IMG/VR virus record: IMGVR_UViG_3300010158_000123
Span: 1 to 44,673 of that record
Strand: one strand, 5' to 3'
DNA from: a virus
Length of the DNA stretch: 44,673 bases
Made by a program: the position numbers and the translations under genes. Under the pieces are notes generated by a model. That model saw only the letters and a program-made list of their open reading frames with translations. It searched no databases and was not told where the DNA came from. Positions 1,099 to 7,094 of the stretch are shown one piece after another (within the stretch, counting starts at the first letter, position 1; each line of letters begins with the position of its first letter).

Positions 1099-4000
1099 TT
1101 AAAATGCTCTACCAGTTGATTTTGCCGCTGTCTTTGCTGTTTTGCTACTAGCATCGGCTGTAGTGGCACTGTGATTAATTAATTCTACCATATGTCTATT
1201 TAACATGATTAGCTGGTCGTTCAAATCTTTTAAGGTAGCCTCAGCTGTTTTTGCTTTGGGTGCTTCTTTAGGTGCTTCTTTAGGTGCTTCTTTAGTTGCC
1301 GCAGCTTTTGCTTGTTCTGATTCTCCAGGTTTACCTGTTGTTTTTGTTTCTTCTTTCTTAGCGGCCGCTTCGGTAGTTTTAGGAGCACTAGCAGTTGCAG
1401 CAGGTTTTGGTGCACCTGTTGTTTTTGTTTCTTCTTTCTTTGCGGCCGCTTCAGTAGTTTTAGGAGCACTAGCAGTTGCAGCAGGTTTTGGTGCACCTTC
1501 TGTTTTATTTTTTGCTGTGAGTTTGGCAAATTCTTCATCACTTACTTTGTTAACAATTTTAGGATTAAACATATCGCCAAGCATGCCACCTTTGCCACCG
1601 ATAATATCTCCAAAACTTCCAGTTAATTTGTTAGCTTGCTCGGTGACATATCCTACATCTCCTGATTTTTTTCCTTTAGTCAAATCTCCTACCTTACCTG
1701 CTATGTCTGCACTTTTAGGAATCATTCCACCAAGCATTTTATTCATCTGTGATTTTGCAGATTCTGCTTGAGCAATAACTGCTTTAGCTTCTGGACTATT
1801 AGGATCTACAATTTTTCCGTTAATTTTTACGGTTGTATTTGCATTTTCAAGTGCGTCTGCCTGTGCTGTTTTTGTAACTTCTGATATTTTTGCAACTGTT
1901 TCTTCTTGCATACTTACTTGTTCGTTAGCTGCTTGTTGCTTTAATTCTTTTTCTCTTGTAGCACTATATTCGTTAAGATTCTCCATGACATCTTGCATTT
2001 CTCTTTTAGATGCCGCTTGCTTTTCAAACATTGCTTTATTAAGTGTTTCGTTTTCAATTGCAGCAAGTTCTTCGGTAGTTGCTTGACGATCACCAATTTC
2101 TGCTTTCATTTTAATAATTCGTTCACCGATCATCTGTGCTGTTTCAGCATCTTCTTTGGCTCCTTTTTCCATAGCTTTTGCATGGAACGATCTGTTTTCT
2201 TCACTGTATCCTTTATAGTCGTCAATTATTTTTTGCTGACTTTCTGTAAATTGTGAATGATATTGTTCTTGGGCTTTTCCTGCAACTGTTGCAGATTCTA
2301 TACTTTTTAATCCCATATCTTCAGATACTTTTCGCGCAGCTTCCGATGCCGATATCTTAATTGTTGAAGATGCTTGCTCGTTGTCTGTTATTTTTTTCAA
2401 ATTATTTGCGCTGTCATTGGAAAAACTTTGTATATTATCGTTCATATCTATATAAAAGTCATCCATACTTGCACTAATAGGCAATATTGCAGCTATAGCA
2501 TCATCACTAAGACCTTTAACATTGTATCCTACAACGCTTCTTGCAAGCTCAGCGGCTTTAAATATTTCATCTTTCTTAGCTGCCTGATCAGCTAATTCAG
2601 CAGAAGTTTTTTTCTTAGTGTCTCCAAAGAAATTATCTTCATCTTTTGTTTTTGATTTAAACGCTTCTAATTGTTTTGCATTTCCAGAAAATGATATTTT
2701 AGTTTGTTCTTCTACTACTTTTTTAGTTTCTTCAATTGCAGAAGCTTTTTTAGTAGTTTCCCAACTAATGCCAGCTTCAATTTGTTTTTGTAAAGGCTCC
2801 ATTATAGCCTTATATTTGTCACCTATTGCTTTACCTTCGTCTCCAGTCCGCATTTCATAAGAAACTTTACTTCCACCTAACTTGCTACCGTCACCCATTT
2901 GAGCTTTTAATTTTTCTCTAAGAGCAGCTCGCTCAGCTTGCATCTGTTCTCGAACAGCTGCCAATTCTTTTTCAGCAGCTTTGCTACTGTCATTTTGTAC
3001 TTGTTTGGTTTCAGTTGAGCCGCCACCTGACATGCTACTAATAGAAGTGGATACTGATTTGCTAATTTCAGAAAAATTTACTCCTCCTGGAGCTTTACTT
3101 CCAGCACTTAGTTGTTTGCCCATAGCTTTAGTAGCATCAGGATTTAATACAGTTTCACCTTTGTGTATTTTGACAATAGCATCTTCAGGTTCTACAGCAC
3201 TTCCAGTTTCTGCTAGTGTTCCGCCTGCACGTTTTTTAGTTGGCTCGTAGTCTTTAGGCAAACTACTAGCACCGCCTGTAGTTTTAGTAGGACCTTCTTT
3301 TCCTCCCGAAACTATTTCGTTTAAACCTTTAGCAATTTTTGAAGGAGCTTTTTCAGCTTGCTCCATTGTAGTAGCACCGCCAGAAACTTTCTTCATAGCT
3401 GCGTTCATAGCATCTATATAAGCAGGCGTGGTAGCTAATTTTTTGTTTACATCTTCAAAATTATGAGAAAGGCCTCCGGCTGCTATTGCAGCTGCTTTGT
3501 TCATTGCATTTAAATCTTGAGCAACTTTTTGTCCTTCGTCTGCTTCAGGCGTTGCTTTTGCTTTGCCGTTTTCATCTACTTTCAAACCAGCTTGAGTAGC
3601 TTGCACAGCTTCTCGTTGATCTTTAATTGCTTTTACATAGTCGCCGCCGTTTTTGTTTGCTTCACTTTGTACACTCATCATGGCTTTATTGCCCATGACA
3701 AGATTAGCCGCAGCTTGTTGTTGTTCTGCTGTTCCGCTCTTGACTAACCGTTTAAATTCTTCATCAGCCATACGACGTTGAACAGCCGCTTGTGCTTCAT
3801 CCATTTGAGCTTGCGCTACTTTTTTCTGCTCGTCAGTTTTGGCATTCAACATAAGTTCAGTAGCTGCTTGATATTTGTTAGCTGCTTCTGGTCCCATCGC
3901 CTGCAACATGGCCAAACCTTCTTTAGTTTGCACTCCACCTGTGGCAATTTCTGTTGTCAGGCTCATAAATCCAGGGCCTAGTTTTTGCACTTGCTGTTGG

Positions 4001-4782
4001 ACTTTTTCGTAATTTTCTCGTTGCTTTTCGTCCATTTGCATCATGGCTAACTGTGCTAAAGGTTTTTTCTCTTCAGCTTTAATGCTGTCCATGATAGCTT
4101 GACGACTTTGGCCAGTAATTTTTGCCGTTTCATCTAAACTCATTGCTAAATCAATAGCACTCTTGGCGATAGCAGCTTGTCCAGCTTTATCATTAGCATT
4201 TCTTTTGGCATCATTCATTGTAGCCATTGCTGTGATTTCAGCTTGCTCTTGCGCACTGATACCCATCTTGTTCAACTGATCACCAGTTTCTACAATTTGT
4301 TTCTGAACTTTACTAAAATTTAACGCACTTTGCTGTGCTGTGATACCTAATCCGCCAATACTTCCATCAGCTCGTTTGATTACTTCAGAGAATTGTTGCG
4401 TAGTTAGTCCTGCATCTCCTGCCATTCTAACAAACAATCCAATATTATTGCCGCCAATGCCTAACTCGGCACTAGCTTTATCCATATTAGTTTTTTGTTG
4501 TAATAACGCACCGCCAAATAAATCTAAACCTTTACCCAGTGCATTCAATCCAACAGCTTGAGCACCTTTAGATAACGCTGCTAATCCAGCTGTGGCTGCA
4601 TCAGTTCCGCTGTTTAATCTATTAAATCCAAAATATAAACTGGCCGCGCCATCGGATAGATCTTTTAAACCTTTGTTTGCGCCAGCAGCATTTAGACCAG
4701 CTTGTTGCGGTTGAGCTGCACTATTGCCCGAGCCTTGTGCTAACAGTTTTTGTGCGGTTTCTTCAGATAATGGTGTTGCCAT
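1099..4782 (-). CDS. Probable tail tape measure protein (1227 aa)
   Basis: A long, Ala/Lys/Gln/Glu-rich, mostly helical protein. The N-terminal part (about residues 48-95) has hydrophobic Gly/Ala-rich segments such as GLAALSKGAQAVGLNALGKG. The centre is charged and coiled-coil-like. Near residue 535 is VKIHKGETVLNP, a motif often seen in tape measure proteins. The C-terminus holds two 27-aa repeats (about 1097-1150), three KEAP repeats (about 1163-1174) and a final helix LNDQLIMLNRHMVELINH. Tape measure proteins span the tail tube, set its length and are ejected with the DNA. T4 gp29 is 590 aa, so this one would suit a longer tail or carry extra domains. The gene is divergent from gp26/gp51 and directly upstream of the portal, unlike T4, where gene 29 lies in the 27-28-29-48-54 cluster. 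The start is the ATG read from 4782, 43 nt from a late promoter box, with a weak GGA ribosome site. It could instead be another long virion protein. Confidence 0.72.
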   Translation of the reverse strand: MATPLSEETAQKLLAQGSGNSAAQPQQAGLNAAGANKGLKDLSDGAASLYFGFNRLNSGTDAATAGLAALSKGAQAVGLNALGKGLDLFGGALLQQKTNMDKASAELGIGGNNIGLFVRMAGDAGLTTQQFSEVIKRADGSIGGLGITAQQSALNFSKVQKQIVETGDQLNKMGISAQEQAEITAMATMNDAKRNANDKAGQAAIAKSAIDLAMSLDETAKITGQSRQAIMDSIKAEEKKPLAQLAMMQMDEKQRENYEKVQQQVQKLGPGFMSLTTEIATGGVQTKEGLAMLQAMGPEAANKYQAATELMLNAKTDEQKKVAQAQMDEAQAAVQRRMADEEFKRLVKSGTAEQQQAAANLVMGNKAMMSVQSEANKNGGDYVKAIKDQREAVQATQAGLKVDENGKAKATPEADEGQKVAQDLNAMNKAAAIAAGGLSHNFEDVNKKLATTPAYIDAMNAAMKKVSGGATTMEQAEKAPSKIAKGLNEIVSGGKEGPTKTTGGASSLPKDYEPTKKRAGGTLAETGSAVEPEDAIVKIHKGETVLNPDATKAMGKQLSAGSKAPGGVNFSEISKSVSTSISSMSGGGSTETKQVQNDSSKAAEKELAAVREQMQAERAALREKLKAQMGDGSKLGGSKVSYEMRTGDEGKAIGDKYKAIMEPLQKQIEAGISWETTKKASAIEETKKVVEEQTKISFSGNAKQLEAFKSKTKDEDNFFGDTKKKTSAELADQAAKKDEIFKAAELARSVVGYNVKGLSDDAIAAILPISASMDDFYIDMNDNIQSFSNDSANNLKKITDNEQASSTIKISASEAARKVSEDMGLKSIESATVAGKAQEQYHSQFTESQQKIIDDYKGYSEENRSFHAKAMEKGAKEDAETAQMIGERIIKMKAEIGDRQATTEELAAIENETLNKAMFEKQAASKREMQDVMENLNEYSATREKELKQQAANEQVSMQEETVAKISEVTKTAQADALENANTTVKINGKIVDPNSPEAKAVIAQAESAKSQMNKMLGGMIPKSADIAGKVGDLTKGKKSGDVGYVTEQANKLTGSFGDIIGGKGGMLGDMFNPKIVNKVSDEEFAKLTAKNKTEGAPKPAATASAPKTTEAAAKKEETKTTGAPKPAATASAPKTTEAAAKKEETKTTGKPGESEQAKAAATKEAPKEAPKEAPKAKTAEATLKDLNDQLIMLNRHMVELINHSATTADASSKTAKTAAKSTGRAF
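1261..1296 (-). repeat. Three 12-bp tandem repeats encoding KEAP
   Basis: Three copies of TGCTTCTTTAGG (the last ends in T) follow each other without a gap. In the tape measure frame they encode KEAP three times. A Lys/Glu/Ala/Pro tract of this kind is probably a flexible or extended linker near the C-terminus. Confidence 0.85.
1333..1494 (-). repeat. Two nearly identical 81-bp tandem repeats in the tape measure gene
   Basis: Copy 1333-1413 and copy 1414-1494 differ at only a few bases. They encode two copies of a 27-aa unit containing PKPAATASAPKTTEAAAKK. The near identity at DNA level points to a recent duplication, with copy number likely to vary between relatives. The repeat lies in the Ala/Pro/Lys-rich C-terminal linker. 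Confidence 0.88.
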
Positions 4783-4806
4783 AATTTTTTCCAGGAAATG
4801 TGCGTA

Positions 4807-4814
4807 TATAAATA
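4807..4814 (+). promoter_or_regulatory. T4-type late promoter box for gp26/gp51
   Basis: An exact TATAAATA, the T4 late promoter -10 consensus, stands 29 bp before the gp26 ATG. A GGAG ribosome site (4833-4836) lies between them. Confidence 0.75.
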
Positions 4815-4824
4815 CTACATAAGA

Positions 4825-4832
4825 TATTTATC
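4825..4832 (-). promoter_or_regulatory. T4-type late promoter box for the tape measure-portal unit
   Basis: GATAAATA on the minus strand, 43 nt before the tape measure ATG. It lies only 10 bp from the opposing TATAAATA box, so the two late promoters are head to head, and their transcripts would overlap over a short stretch. Confidence 0.65.
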
Positions 4833-4843
4833 TGGAGATAAAC

Positions 4844-5665
4844 ATGGTACAGAACCCTTTACAGCAATTTTTTAGACAACCTAAAATTTACATCAAATTA
4901 CCAAGTCAGGGTGTGTACTGTCAGCCCGGAACTATACAAGGAGACGTGGGTAACATGCCTGTGTATAGTTTAACAGGCATGGATGAAATTATTTTAAAAA
5001 CTCCTGATGCTTTGCTATCCGGCGAAAGTTCAGTTAAAGTTATAGAAAGCTGTGTTCCAGGAATTAAAAACGGCTGGGACATGAGCATTTTAGACAGTCA
5101 GGTTATATTTGCTGCCATGCGCATTGCTACATTTGGTAATGAAATGGCTGTTACTAACACTTGTAGCAGTTGCAAAACTGAAAACGATTATGATTTAGAT
5201 CTAAGTAAAATTATTGAACATTTTAGTTCAGTGGTCTACGACAGCAAAATAGTTTTAAAAGAATTAATTATAAAATTACAACCATTAAACTATCGTCAAA
5301 GCACAGAGTTTAATTTGAAGAATTTTAGACTACAACAAAAGATTCGACAAACAGAAACAATAGAAGATCAAGCTGAGCAACAGCAACTGATCAATAAACT
5401 GTTTGAAGAACTAAGTGTAATTCAAAATGAATTGTACAAAGCATGTGTTGAATCTGTAGAAGTCAATAATAAAGTTGTTACCGAACGTTCGTTTATTAAC
5501 GAATGGCTAGACAACTGCGATAAAGAAGTATACGACAGTATCAAGAAACATATTGAAGATAGCAGAGACAAATGGAAAGCACCTACATATCCTGTTAAAT
5601 GTGACACTTGCGGTACTGAAGCTAAACTTTTTGTGGAATTAGATCAAAGTAATTTTTTCGACTAA
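4844..5665 (+). CDS. 26: Baseplate hub subunit / assembly chaperone gp26
   Basis: 273 aa (T4 gp26 is 208 aa). The protein matches the T4-like gp26 baseplate family: an N-terminal segment with FFRQPKIYIKLPSQG and YSLTGMDEIILKTPDALLSG, then IESCVPGIKNGWDM, which is typical of the family. Two CxxC pairs, C107-C110 and C253-C256, probably bind one zinc ion. The stretch from about residue 140 to 240 is helical and Gln/Glu-rich. In T4, gp26 with gp51, gp27, gp28 and gp29 builds the central baseplate hub. The start is the ATG 6 nt after GGAG, behind an exact late promoter box. The last sense codons AAT TTT TTC carry a slippery heptamer followed by a long stem, so part of the translation should shift into the gp51-like frame and yield a protein of about 349 aa. 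Confidence 0.88.
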   Translation: MVQNPLQQFFRQPKIYIKLPSQGVYCQPGTIQGDVGNMPVYSLTGMDEIILKTPDALLSGESSVKVIESCVPGIKNGWDMSILDSQVIFAAMRIATFGNEMAVTNTCSSCKTENDYDLDLSKIIEHFSSVVYDSKIVLKELIIKLQPLNYRQSTEFNLKNFRLQQKIRQTETIEDQAEQQQLINKLFEELSVIQNELYKACVESVEVNNKVVTERSFINEWLDNCDKEVYDSIKKHIEDSRDKWKAPTYPVKCDTCGTEAKLFVELDQSNFFD

Positions 5666-5715
5666 GCCTAATCGGACTTAGTGGTCAAGAAATCCACGAA
5701 AGTTTGGTTAGGCTT
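5653..5715 (+). promoter_or_regulatory. Candidate programmed -1 ribosomal frameshift cassette (gp26 to gp51)
   Basis: The heptamer T TTT TTC (5653-5659) is in the correct X XXY YYZ phase of gp26, two codons before its TAA stop. After a 4-nt spacer, 5664-5679 pairs with 5700-5715: eight Watson-Crick pairs (AAGCCTAA with TTAGGCTT), four pairs with G-U wobbles, then four Watson-Crick pairs (ACTT with AAGT). Above a small internal loop, GTGG (5681-5684) pairs with CCAC (5694-5697) around a 9-nt loop. Shifting by -1 enters an open frame (CGA CTA AGC CTA ...) with no stop until 5890. Pairing was worked out by hand; no folding energy was computed. Confidence 0.8.
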
Positions 5716-5892
5716 GAAAAAGAAACAAAGATTTTTAAAGAAGATTTGTTTAGAATCTCGTGGTACATGCGTGGCGGAGTTACTGTAAACGATCTAATGG
5801 AGCGATACGGTTTCGAAGATCGTCAGATCATGTACGAGATTATTAAAGAAAACATCGAAGCAACTAAAGCTAGCCAAATGCCTTTGCTTTAA
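5659..5892 (+). CDS. 51: gp51-like baseplate hub assembly catalyst, expressed as -1 frame extension of gp26
   Basis: The -1 frame contributes about 77 residues, starting RLSLIGLSGQEIHESLVRLE and ending in YEIIKENIEATKASQMPLL. The short protein with WYMRGGVTVNDLMERYGFE and IIKENIEATK resembles the small gp51 entries found after gp26 in marine T4-like phages; T4 gp51 itself is 249 aa. There is no ATG or GTG start in the frame. The only candidate is a TTG at 5704 without a clear ribosome site, and it is buried in the stem described at 5653-5715. The sequence before that TTG (LIGLSGQEIHESL) reads as real protein, which supports translation through a frameshift. The likely role is that of the longer chaperone form, as in G/GT systems that bind the tape measure; this is inference. 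The stop overlaps the stop of the opposing gene. Confidence 0.72.
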   Translation, partial: RLSLIGLSGQEIHESLVRLEKETKIFKEDLFRISWYMRGGVTVNDLMERYGFEDRQIMYEIIKENIEATKASQMPLL

Positions 5893-7094
5893 TCTGGCTT
5901 CCATCCTGGCGGTTTCAATGCTCGCTTGACAGGATTAGTAGGATCTTGTATCATATTTTGATTATCGGGATCCACTACCCAGCCAGTTATATCCTGATTG
6001 TTACTGTGCCAGTTGTCATTGTAGTACATCTTACGGCCAGCAGCTGTTTTTCCAGTAGTTGGGTTAACAGGATTAGCTGATGTCCCAGGATCACTAGATG
6101 CTGCTATATCTTTTTGAGGATCAGTCTCACCGGTTGTTCCAGTTGGTGCTGCGGCTTTGTTGTATTCGCTATTAGGATTGTCAGCATTAGGAATTGAAGG
6201 ACGTATTGCCTTTGGTACGTATTGTAATCCGTTATTAATAGTTTCGCCGATTGTTTGAGCCAGTTCAGGAATGTTATCTGCTATTAATGCCGCAATATAG
6301 TTTGCATTATCTTTGTTGTTAATCCAAGATTTAATAGCAACGGCACCGCCTAACAATACTGTATTAAATCCAGGAATGTGTTTTGTTATTGTTCTTAAAA
6401 ATGGGCCACCTGTTAGTGCATAAAAAGCTGTTGTGCCAGCAAGTACTGTTGCCCAACGAGCCAACATAATAGTGGCTTCTTGATTCAATACTGCATTGTA
6501 TTCGTCTTCAGTCCATGCACCTGTATCTAGTTTAGTTTTTTTGTAACCATCCATCTTGCTTACAAAATCTAAATAAGGCTGTATCAATTCCTTAATATTC
6601 CAACCCCACAATGCAGCCTTTACAGATTTAGTAATTACGCCCCAAGCTGAAATCTTTTCCAAACCAAGACCTAAGCTACCAATTTTCATTTGAGCAGTAG
6701 CTGTTGCTTTTTTAATAACAGCCGCATCTAATTGTTCTGCTTCCATGCCCAGACTATCAATAGCTTGTGCTCTAAGAGTTGTTTGATTAGGAACTGCTTT
6801 GCCAGCTTCTTTATACTCTCTTTCCAAATTCATCATTTCTCTACTGACTTTGGCATTATTTCTACGCAAATACTCAGTAGCAGCATCTGCGGCTTTCATG
6901 TTTTTGTTTTGGGCAAGTACAGCTATTTCATCAGCAATTTTATCTTCTAAAGCACCTGCAGCACCCCTAAGAGTCTTGATAGGACTTGAAATAAATTGTT
7001 TTCCTTTAGCCAAGGTACTGCCTAATTTCTCAATTCCTTGAGATATTGCACCTTCATGAACTTTCTTTTCAACAATTATTTCGTAGACTTTCAT
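5889..7094 (-). CDS. Unknown late (probably virion) protein, 401 aa
   Basis: I do not recognise a family. The protein starts MKVYEIIVEKK; residues 40-140 are charged and helical. About residues 205-258 contain two hydrophobic stretches, IMLARWATVLAGTTAFYALTGG and FNTVLLGGAVAI, which could be membrane or amphipathic helices. About residues 300-355 are Pro/Thr/Gly-rich and probably disordered, and the end has YYNDNWHSNNQDITGW. The ATG read from 7094 follows AGGGA about 9 nt upstream and a late promoter box at 7114-7121, so it is expressed with structural genes. A late protein with hydrophobic segments near the tape measure and portal genes could be an internal or ejected virion protein, but nothing proves it. 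The stop is shared within TTAA with the convergent gp51 stop. Confidence 0.6.
   Translation of the reverse strand: MKVYEIIVEKKVHEGAISQGIEKLGSTLAKGKQFISSPIKTLRGAAGALEDKIADEIAVLAQNKNMKAADAATEYLRRNNAKVSREMMNLEREYKEAGKAVPNQTTLRAQAIDSLGMEAEQLDAAVIKKATATAQMKIGSLGLGLEKISAWGVITKSVKAALWGWNIKELIQPYLDFVSKMDGYKKTKLDTGAWTEDEYNAVLNQEATIMLARWATVLAGTTAFYALTGGPFLRTITKHIPGFNTVLLGGAVAIKSWINNKDNANYIAALIADNIPELAQTIGETINNGLQYVPKAIRPSIPNADNPNSEYNKAAAPTGTTGETDPQKDIAASSDPGTSANPVNPTTGKTAAGRKMYYNDNWHSNNQDITGWVVDPDNQNMIQDPTNPVKRALKPPGWKPD

Follow-up and report, generated by a model that had tools for sequence, protein, structure and literature searches.

How is an open frame translated that overlaps the 3' end of another gene and has its first ATG well inside its own coding sequence? 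Such an arrangement occurs in the window analyzed here, the full 44,673 nucleotides of IMG/VR virus record IMGVR_UViG_3300010158_000123, where a gene of the phage T4 gp26 family ends within a second frame in the -1 register. The original prediction was that a programmed -1 frameshift fuses a gp51-type tail to a gp26-type protein, making the pair a counterpart of lambda G/G-T. A conserved slippery heptamer, a conserved -1 frame and a covarying stem support that proposal at the level of sequence, and we put the probability at about 0.93 that -1 frameshifting yields both gp26 (273 aa) and a 349-aa gp51-like fusion, which would act as short and long tail assembly chaperones in the manner of lambda G and G-T.

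The gp26-family gene and its neighborhood

The ORF at 4844-5665 (plus strand, 273 aa) belongs to family PF12322 (T4_baseplate), which it matches with an E-value of 4.5e-14 and a score of 53.1 bits (curated cut-off, 24.5); it also matches phrog_150 (E 1.3e-18, alignment 1-271). Its AlphaFold model (pLDDT 87.9) resembles predicted T4-like baseplate hub assembly proteins in a fold search (best E 1.2e-23). Comparison with the PDB gave no match to the sequence at E ≤ 1 and none to the model at E ≤ 0.001 (Foldseek). The best VIA-align hit to the model (Z 7.5) covered residues 146-206 only, and no solved tail chaperone was among the VIA-align and PDB matches listed. The product of this ORF would be the short tail assembly chaperone, TAC-N.

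Several other properties of the gene were recorded. The model also matched predicted proteins of 507-686 aa in the large phages Erwinia phiEaH2, Special G, Ralstonia RP12 and RSF1 (E 8.7e-7 to 4.5e-5), and on the strength of the modeled fold these might possibly be the tail chaperones of those phages. Two cysteine pairs, C107/C110 and C253/C256, are invariant in gp26 (encoded at 4844-5662 of the window), a sequence pattern that suggests a metal-binding site. A putative motif, TATAAATA, lies at 4807-4814 on the plus strand, 29 bp before the gp26 start, and we take it to resemble a T4 late promoter. Three contigs tested carried window positions 4700-6000 unchanged; one of these is 345 kb long, so the source of the window is a large phage. 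Contigs of the wider clade reach 372 kb.

Divergent from gp26, and separated from it by 61 bp, a long ORF (1099-4782, minus strand, 1227 aa) is by its position a candidate tape measure gene. Its product is 15.7% alanine and 11.4% lysine. Among the related contigs, 88 have a gp26 that begins at or beyond locus position 600; in 79 of them no more than 150 nt separate the gp26 start from the ATG of the longest minus-strand ORF upstream. These counterparts vary in length, as tape measure genes do. The ORF had no Pfam or PHROG match, and blastp against the corresponding ORFs of nine named phages gave nothing better than E 0.32. The RaK2 counterpart is annotated as similar to tape measure protein and matches PF09718 at only E 0.36; in PHROGs it is a 'virion structural protein' in the category head and packaging.

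The heptamer and the frame that follows it

The last codons of gp26 read AAT TTT TTC GAC TAA. The heptamer T TTT TTC (5653-5659, plus strand) is in phase, as had been predicted, and a single sense codon (GAC) separates it from the TAA at 5663-5665. Directly 5' of the heptamer, a TAA at 5650-5652 (plus strand) closes the -1 frame, so that the only ways into it are the heptamer and internal initiation. From the heptamer the -1 frame is open to 5889 and ends in a TAA at 5890-5892, giving an extension of 77 aa after the two phenylalanines (5659-5892, plus strand) and a fusion of 349 aa; both the reading frame and the length of the fusion agree with the prediction. The first ATG, GTG or TTG of the -1 frame after the heptamer is indeed a TTG, at 5704, within the 3' arm of the downstream stem described below; the first ATG is at 5767.

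Relatives of the gene were gathered by similarity in parts of gp26 other than the heptamer. The 98 related contigs comprise 25 from a first scan for gp26 similarity and 73 new ones from the best 80 of 522 matches, 7 repeats being left out; among these matches there were 74 distinct 80-nt junctions and 82 distinct gp26 sequences. A second, cyanophage-like set (L053-L132) consists of the best 80 of 591 matches. Since only the best 80 matches were kept in either case, each set is a sample of near relatives.

TTTTTTC occurred near the gp26 3' end in all 98 related contigs listed, that is, as the in-phase, conserved X XXY YYZ heptamer expected of a programmed -1 frameshift site. It is followed by three sense codons and a stop in 81 contigs, by one in 16 and by four in one. 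Because the junction is alike in 98 of 98 contigs listed, we rejected a sequencing error or a decayed gene as its origin. At the second phenylalanine codon all 82 distinct genes have TTC, which makes up 106 of 794 phenylalanine codons (13%) elsewhere in those genes. The codon before the pair ends in T in 82 of 82, when asparagine codons ending in T number only 884 of 1379; the script behind these counts located the site by the pattern T-TTT-TTY, which every one of the 82 genes satisfied. At other codon positions of the same 82 genes, in-phase X XXY YYZ was found 176 times in 21,960.

The -1 frame is conserved along with the heptamer. Among the matches listed it spans 79 codons and a stop in 94 of the 98 contigs and 78 codons and a stop in one, and is open to the contig end in three. 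In 74 distinct contigs the other two frames contain means of 5.7 and 8.5 stops per 71 codons, and divergence at the three -1 codon positions is 0.365, 0.198 and 0.543, a bias toward third positions; these contigs were picked for a 79-codon -1 frame and so lack -1 stops by choice, the unselected lengths being those of the 98-contig count. The extension contains a conserved W-M-R-G-G-V pattern and is predicted to be helical (helices 9-36, 43-48 and 52-72; pLDDT 85.4).

Database comparisons placed the extension less firmly. Its fold search returned 34 matches at E ≤ 10 and none at E ≤ 0.001. The window's extension did not match phrog_634 at E ≤ 1, nor did that of L143 at E ≤ 0.1, and we do not assign the extension to that family. 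A direct match of the clade extension to a T4 gp51 profile also failed; profile-profile comparison with cyanophage gp51 gave a weak match (28.8% probability, E 6e-4). The name gp51-like, as applied to the clade extension, is thus based on position, architecture and this weak match. The extension would correspond to TAC-C.

A covarying stem and the readings it helps to separate

A spacer of 4 nt (5660-5663, plus strand) separates the heptamer from a stem-loop at 5664-5715 (plus strand; arms 5664-5679 and 5700-5715), a candidate frameshift stimulator. Spacer and stem had been described from the sequence, and the 16 contiguous pairs and further inner helix of 4 pairs are as claimed; the G-U pairs number three rather than four, a fourth being reached only by adding a 17th pair, U-G. 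The proposed folding check came out in favor of the stem, with a z-score of -5.85 and none of 200 shuffled sequences as stable.

Comparison among relatives provides further evidence for the stem. Across nine core pairs in the 74 distinct junctions (666 cells), 89.6% of cells are paired, compared with 54.5% in the best slid register. Cells changed on both sides number 35, versus 7.5 in shuffles and 15 at most in slid registers, and the covariation score is 0.314, versus 0.172 in shuffles and 0.079 in the best slid register; the structure scored is the window's own stem, which favors it over slid registers. Six of the nine core pairs have changes on both sides, a number equally reached by 3 of 500 shuffles and by the +2 slide. 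At the pair formed by columns 21 and 54, both third positions of -1 codons, UA, AU, UG, CG, GC and GU were all seen. At least 8 of 10 window-type pairs are present in 63 of the 74 junctions.

Alternative helices were sought in 16 of the 74 junctions, including all 11 that form no more than 7 of 10 window-type pairs. Whole helices have been replaced in L213, L214, L022, L023 and others: L213 has the entire helix swapped in the same register (AGGTTGTTGA/TCAACAACCT), and another replacement reads GGCTTCT/AGAAGCC. The 3' arm lies 11-14 nt further on in L195, L196, L203, L208, L211, L214, L022 and L023, with the 5' arm in place. L215 has 6 pairs only. The alignment of related junctions that had been suggested as a check hence bore out the heptamer (98 of 98 listed) and the compensatory changes in the stem, but not its universality: L207, L212, L012 and L013 (4 of 74 distinct junctions) have no helix of at least 6 pairs at the stem position. 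The median junction folds at -18.0 kcal/mol, compared with -11.1 kcal/mol for controls from the same gene; only 26 of the 74 are more stable than all control windows taken from their own gene. The covarying stem sits at a near-constant distance, about 4-6 nt downstream of the heptamer in the clade. Of the two kinds of putative stimulator sought, a downstream structure or an upstream Shine-Dalgarno element with covariation or codon constraint, the clade has the first. Upstream, the 12 commonest best Shine-Dalgarno matches (60 of 71 distinct sequences) were only 2-4 nt long and scattered in distance, and we rejected Shine-Dalgarno stimulation in this large-phage clade on those grounds.

In the mechanism that we propose, most ribosomes would terminate at 5665 and produce gp26, the short chaperone TAC-N. 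A minority would pause at the stem, which starts 4 nt beyond the heptamer; both phenylalanine tRNAs would slip back by one base, and reading would go on in the -1 frame to 5889. The product would be the 349-aa gp26-gp51-like fusion, the long form TAC-NC. By analogy with lambda G and G-T, the two forms may coat the tape measure protein and load it while the tail is being built. At the level of sequence the locus has the makeup of a chaperone pair, in which one or two genes supply a short form and a long form with an extra C-terminal part; the slip and its efficiency, binding to the tape measure protein and chaperone function are parts of the proposed scheme.

Other accounts explain fewer of these features. 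In translational coupling, gp51 would be a separate protein made by reinitiation near the gp26 stop after termination, and the T run would be incidental. Cyanophages offer some encouragement for such an account, as all 43 of their distinct contigs among the matches listed carry an ATG just past the gp26 stop, at codon index 5 of the -1 frame; free gp51 is therefore also possible there, and both routes could be used. Phages K469 and Cygsa01 likewise have a TAATG junction without X XXY YYZ. Coupling is weak in the clade, however, because 62 of 74 distinct contigs have no -1 ATG before the one at codon index 38, which lies within a conserved WYMRGG motif and is preceded by residues that are themselves conserved. 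The first weak start in the window would be the TTG inside the stem, and the invariant TTC of the second phenylalanine codon is left unexplained; coupling therefore seems to us very improbable. We give even less credence to transcriptional slippage on the six T, by which mRNAs one base shorter or longer would arise and the fusion would be made at the RNA level. The six-T run is present and invariant, but six is short for efficient transcriptional slippage, which moreover would require neither a run ending in C in 98 of 98 contigs listed nor a covarying stem at a near-constant distance.

The role of the stem can be questioned separately. It might be a transcription terminator or a processing site, with the heptamer alone driving the slip. 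Its absence from four distinct junctions and its reduction to 6 pairs in a fifth fit that suggestion, as does the situation in cyanophages, where the heptamer is retained and the RNA beyond it is only a little more stable in its fold than controls from gp26 (median -13.7 versus -10.9 kcal/mol). Yet no T run follows the 3' arm, for which reason we rejected a terminator, and the 5' arm stays by the heptamer even where the 3' arm has moved. We consider it unlikely that the stem lacks a stimulatory role; judging from its covariation and placement, the stem at 5664-5715 is probably a frameshift stimulator, and ribosomal frameshifting at the heptamer remains our preferred reading of the junction.

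Gene 26 junctions across the T4 superfamily

Equivalent junctions occur in other T4-related phages. The 14 named jumbo phages fetched among 60 records found each have a -1 ORF, preceded by T TTT TTC (12) or T TTT TTT (2); in the eight scanned, the best SD-like matches were 2-4 nt long, and none at a spacing of 9 nt exceeded 3 nt. In all 80 cyanophage-like contigs (best 80 of 591), T TTT TTC is present and a single sense codon separates it from the stop. In S-ShM2 the -1 ORF is annotated 'baseplate hub assembly catalyst' and matches phrog_634 with E 9.5e-29. The heptamer class was also found in Sf-FS3, IC12, RL38J1 (TTTTTTG), pf16 (TTTTTTT), EniLVp02 and K571; no X XXY YYZ was found at the gp26 end of Cygsa01, Mutine or K469.

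Two further groups deserve mention. Aeh1 (L051:3705-3884) has a slippery site and an unannotated -1 ORF that matches phrog_634 (E 1.1e-13); by this match the ORF is evidently the gp51 reported missing from Aeh1. That gp51 was missed in Aeh1 would follow if gp51 is a -1 extension of gp26. In Mutine-like Ackermannviridae (L048, L216-L230), all 15 contigs carry ATTTTCATTTAA where gp26 ends, and a conserved -1 ORF with no ATG at its start is present (11 distinct ones listed). This site, which resembles that of T7 gene 10, is perhaps a non-standard slip site.

The cyanophage-like contigs differ from the clade in what accompanies the heptamer. Of 36 distinct upstream sequences (from the best 80 of 591 matches), 30 have GGAGG exactly 10 nt before the heptamer, and the glutamate codon at that position is GAG in 57 of 63 genes, compared with 358 of 1463 elsewhere (among the matches listed). 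A Shine-Dalgarno spacing of 10 nt is dnaX-like, and from its position and codon constraint the GGAGG looks like a dnaX-type frameshift stimulator. SD-like matches of 4-5 nt at 9 nt in Aeh1, pf16, IC12 and RL38J1 may represent a weaker stimulator of this type in Aeh1, pf16 and the two rhizobial phages.

T4 itself is organized differently. An arrangement of genes 26 and 51 adjacent on one strand was rejected, since the two lie on opposite strands. Their products are homologous (blastp 1.7e-6) and both belong to PF12322. T4 gp51 matches phrog_150 over residues 3-248 and phrog_634 over 147-246, and cyanophage-type -1 ORFs align to its residues 207-244 (90.7% probability, E 1.3e-6). T4 gp51 is thus a full-length gp26 relative with an added C-terminus, so that T4 encodes short and long forms as separate genes. 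The shared site in cyanophages, the phrog_634 match of the S-ShM2 ORF and this composition of T4 gp51 add to the case that gp26 and its frameshifted fusion are the gp26/gp51 counterpart of the lambda pair. No slippery heptamer was found in the last 90 nt of T4 gene 26, where the two phenylalanines are encoded by TTC TTT, nor in gp26 of Stupor or Aeromonas phage 31, each of which has a separate gp51 (full-length in Aeromonas phage 31). In the Stupor record, gp26, gp51 and gp28 are all called tape measure protein assembly chaperones. In SdyM_006 a hub-subunit CDS occupies the gp51 position, and only AAATTTA, further upstream, is present.

In the lineages examined, then, these sequences suggest one of two sources for the long form, the slip or a separate gene; three lineages with a non-standard junction are exceptions. 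We lean toward the view that the gene 26 slip is ancestral in the T4 superfamily and has been kept while its stimulator turned over: a stem about 4-6 nt downstream in the clade, GGAGG 10 nt upstream in cyanophages with weaker versions in Aeh1, pf16 and two rhizobial phages, and, for Mutine-like Ackermannviridae, an ATT TTC site of non-standard type. The T4 lineage would have dropped the slip in favor of two genes.

The original prediction allowed that the gp26/gp51 slip might be undescribed, but its essentials had been published in 2022 for T4-like phages. Vladimirov et al. 2022 (Virology 566:9-15) reportedly describe frameshifting for several groups of T4-like phages, and for T4 itself two separate genes, 26 and 51. 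Passages of PMC10274946 and PMC12846349 cite Vladimirov, Gautam & Davidson 2022 for tail chaperones that in some T4-like phages are encoded by a short gene and, separately, a fused long one; with the same citation, the Adele paper (PMC12846349) mentions poly-T -1 signals in TAC-N genes of T4-like phages. Earlier, a part of the 2010 T4 tail review (PMC3004832) presented gp26 and gp51 as hub assembly chaperones, with gp51 essential and of unknown function. Portions of a 2016 paper (PMC5009743) describe G-T-like -1 frameshifts that give an extended tail protein in long-tailed phages and except T4 from this short/long chaperone rule, an exception that long stood. The available parts of PMC11364771 and PMC12671138 contain nothing on gp26/gp51 frameshifting. 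The general fact of gp26 frameshifting in T4-like phages is already in print, and the window provides a further, well-supported case; what may go beyond the published work is the covarying stem, together with the SD-like element of cyanophages. Annotators of T4-like phages should join gp26 and -1 ORFs.

The window shares with the T4-like gp26/gp51 chaperones, as these sources present them in part, the predicted short and long forms and a poly-T -1 slippery site; its clade may be set apart by the covarying stem and by a -1 frame of 79 codons in which an early ATG is mostly absent. Like T4, it has a protein of the gp26 family, and the T4 gp51 C-terminus matches cyanophage -1 ORFs, whereas T4 uses two opposite-strand genes, has no heptamer at the end of gene 26 and makes a gp51 that is a complete gp26 homologue. 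The likeness to lambda G and G-T, whose heptamer is G GGA AAG, is one of architecture: a -1 slip near the 3' end of the short chaperone gene gives a C-terminally extended form, although the candidate tape measure gene is divergent and upstream in the window and is downstream on the same strand in lambda. A similar likeness, again of architecture, connects the window to E/E' of phage P2, a -1 frameshift in tail genes, where the slip also yields an extended tail protein beside tail genes.
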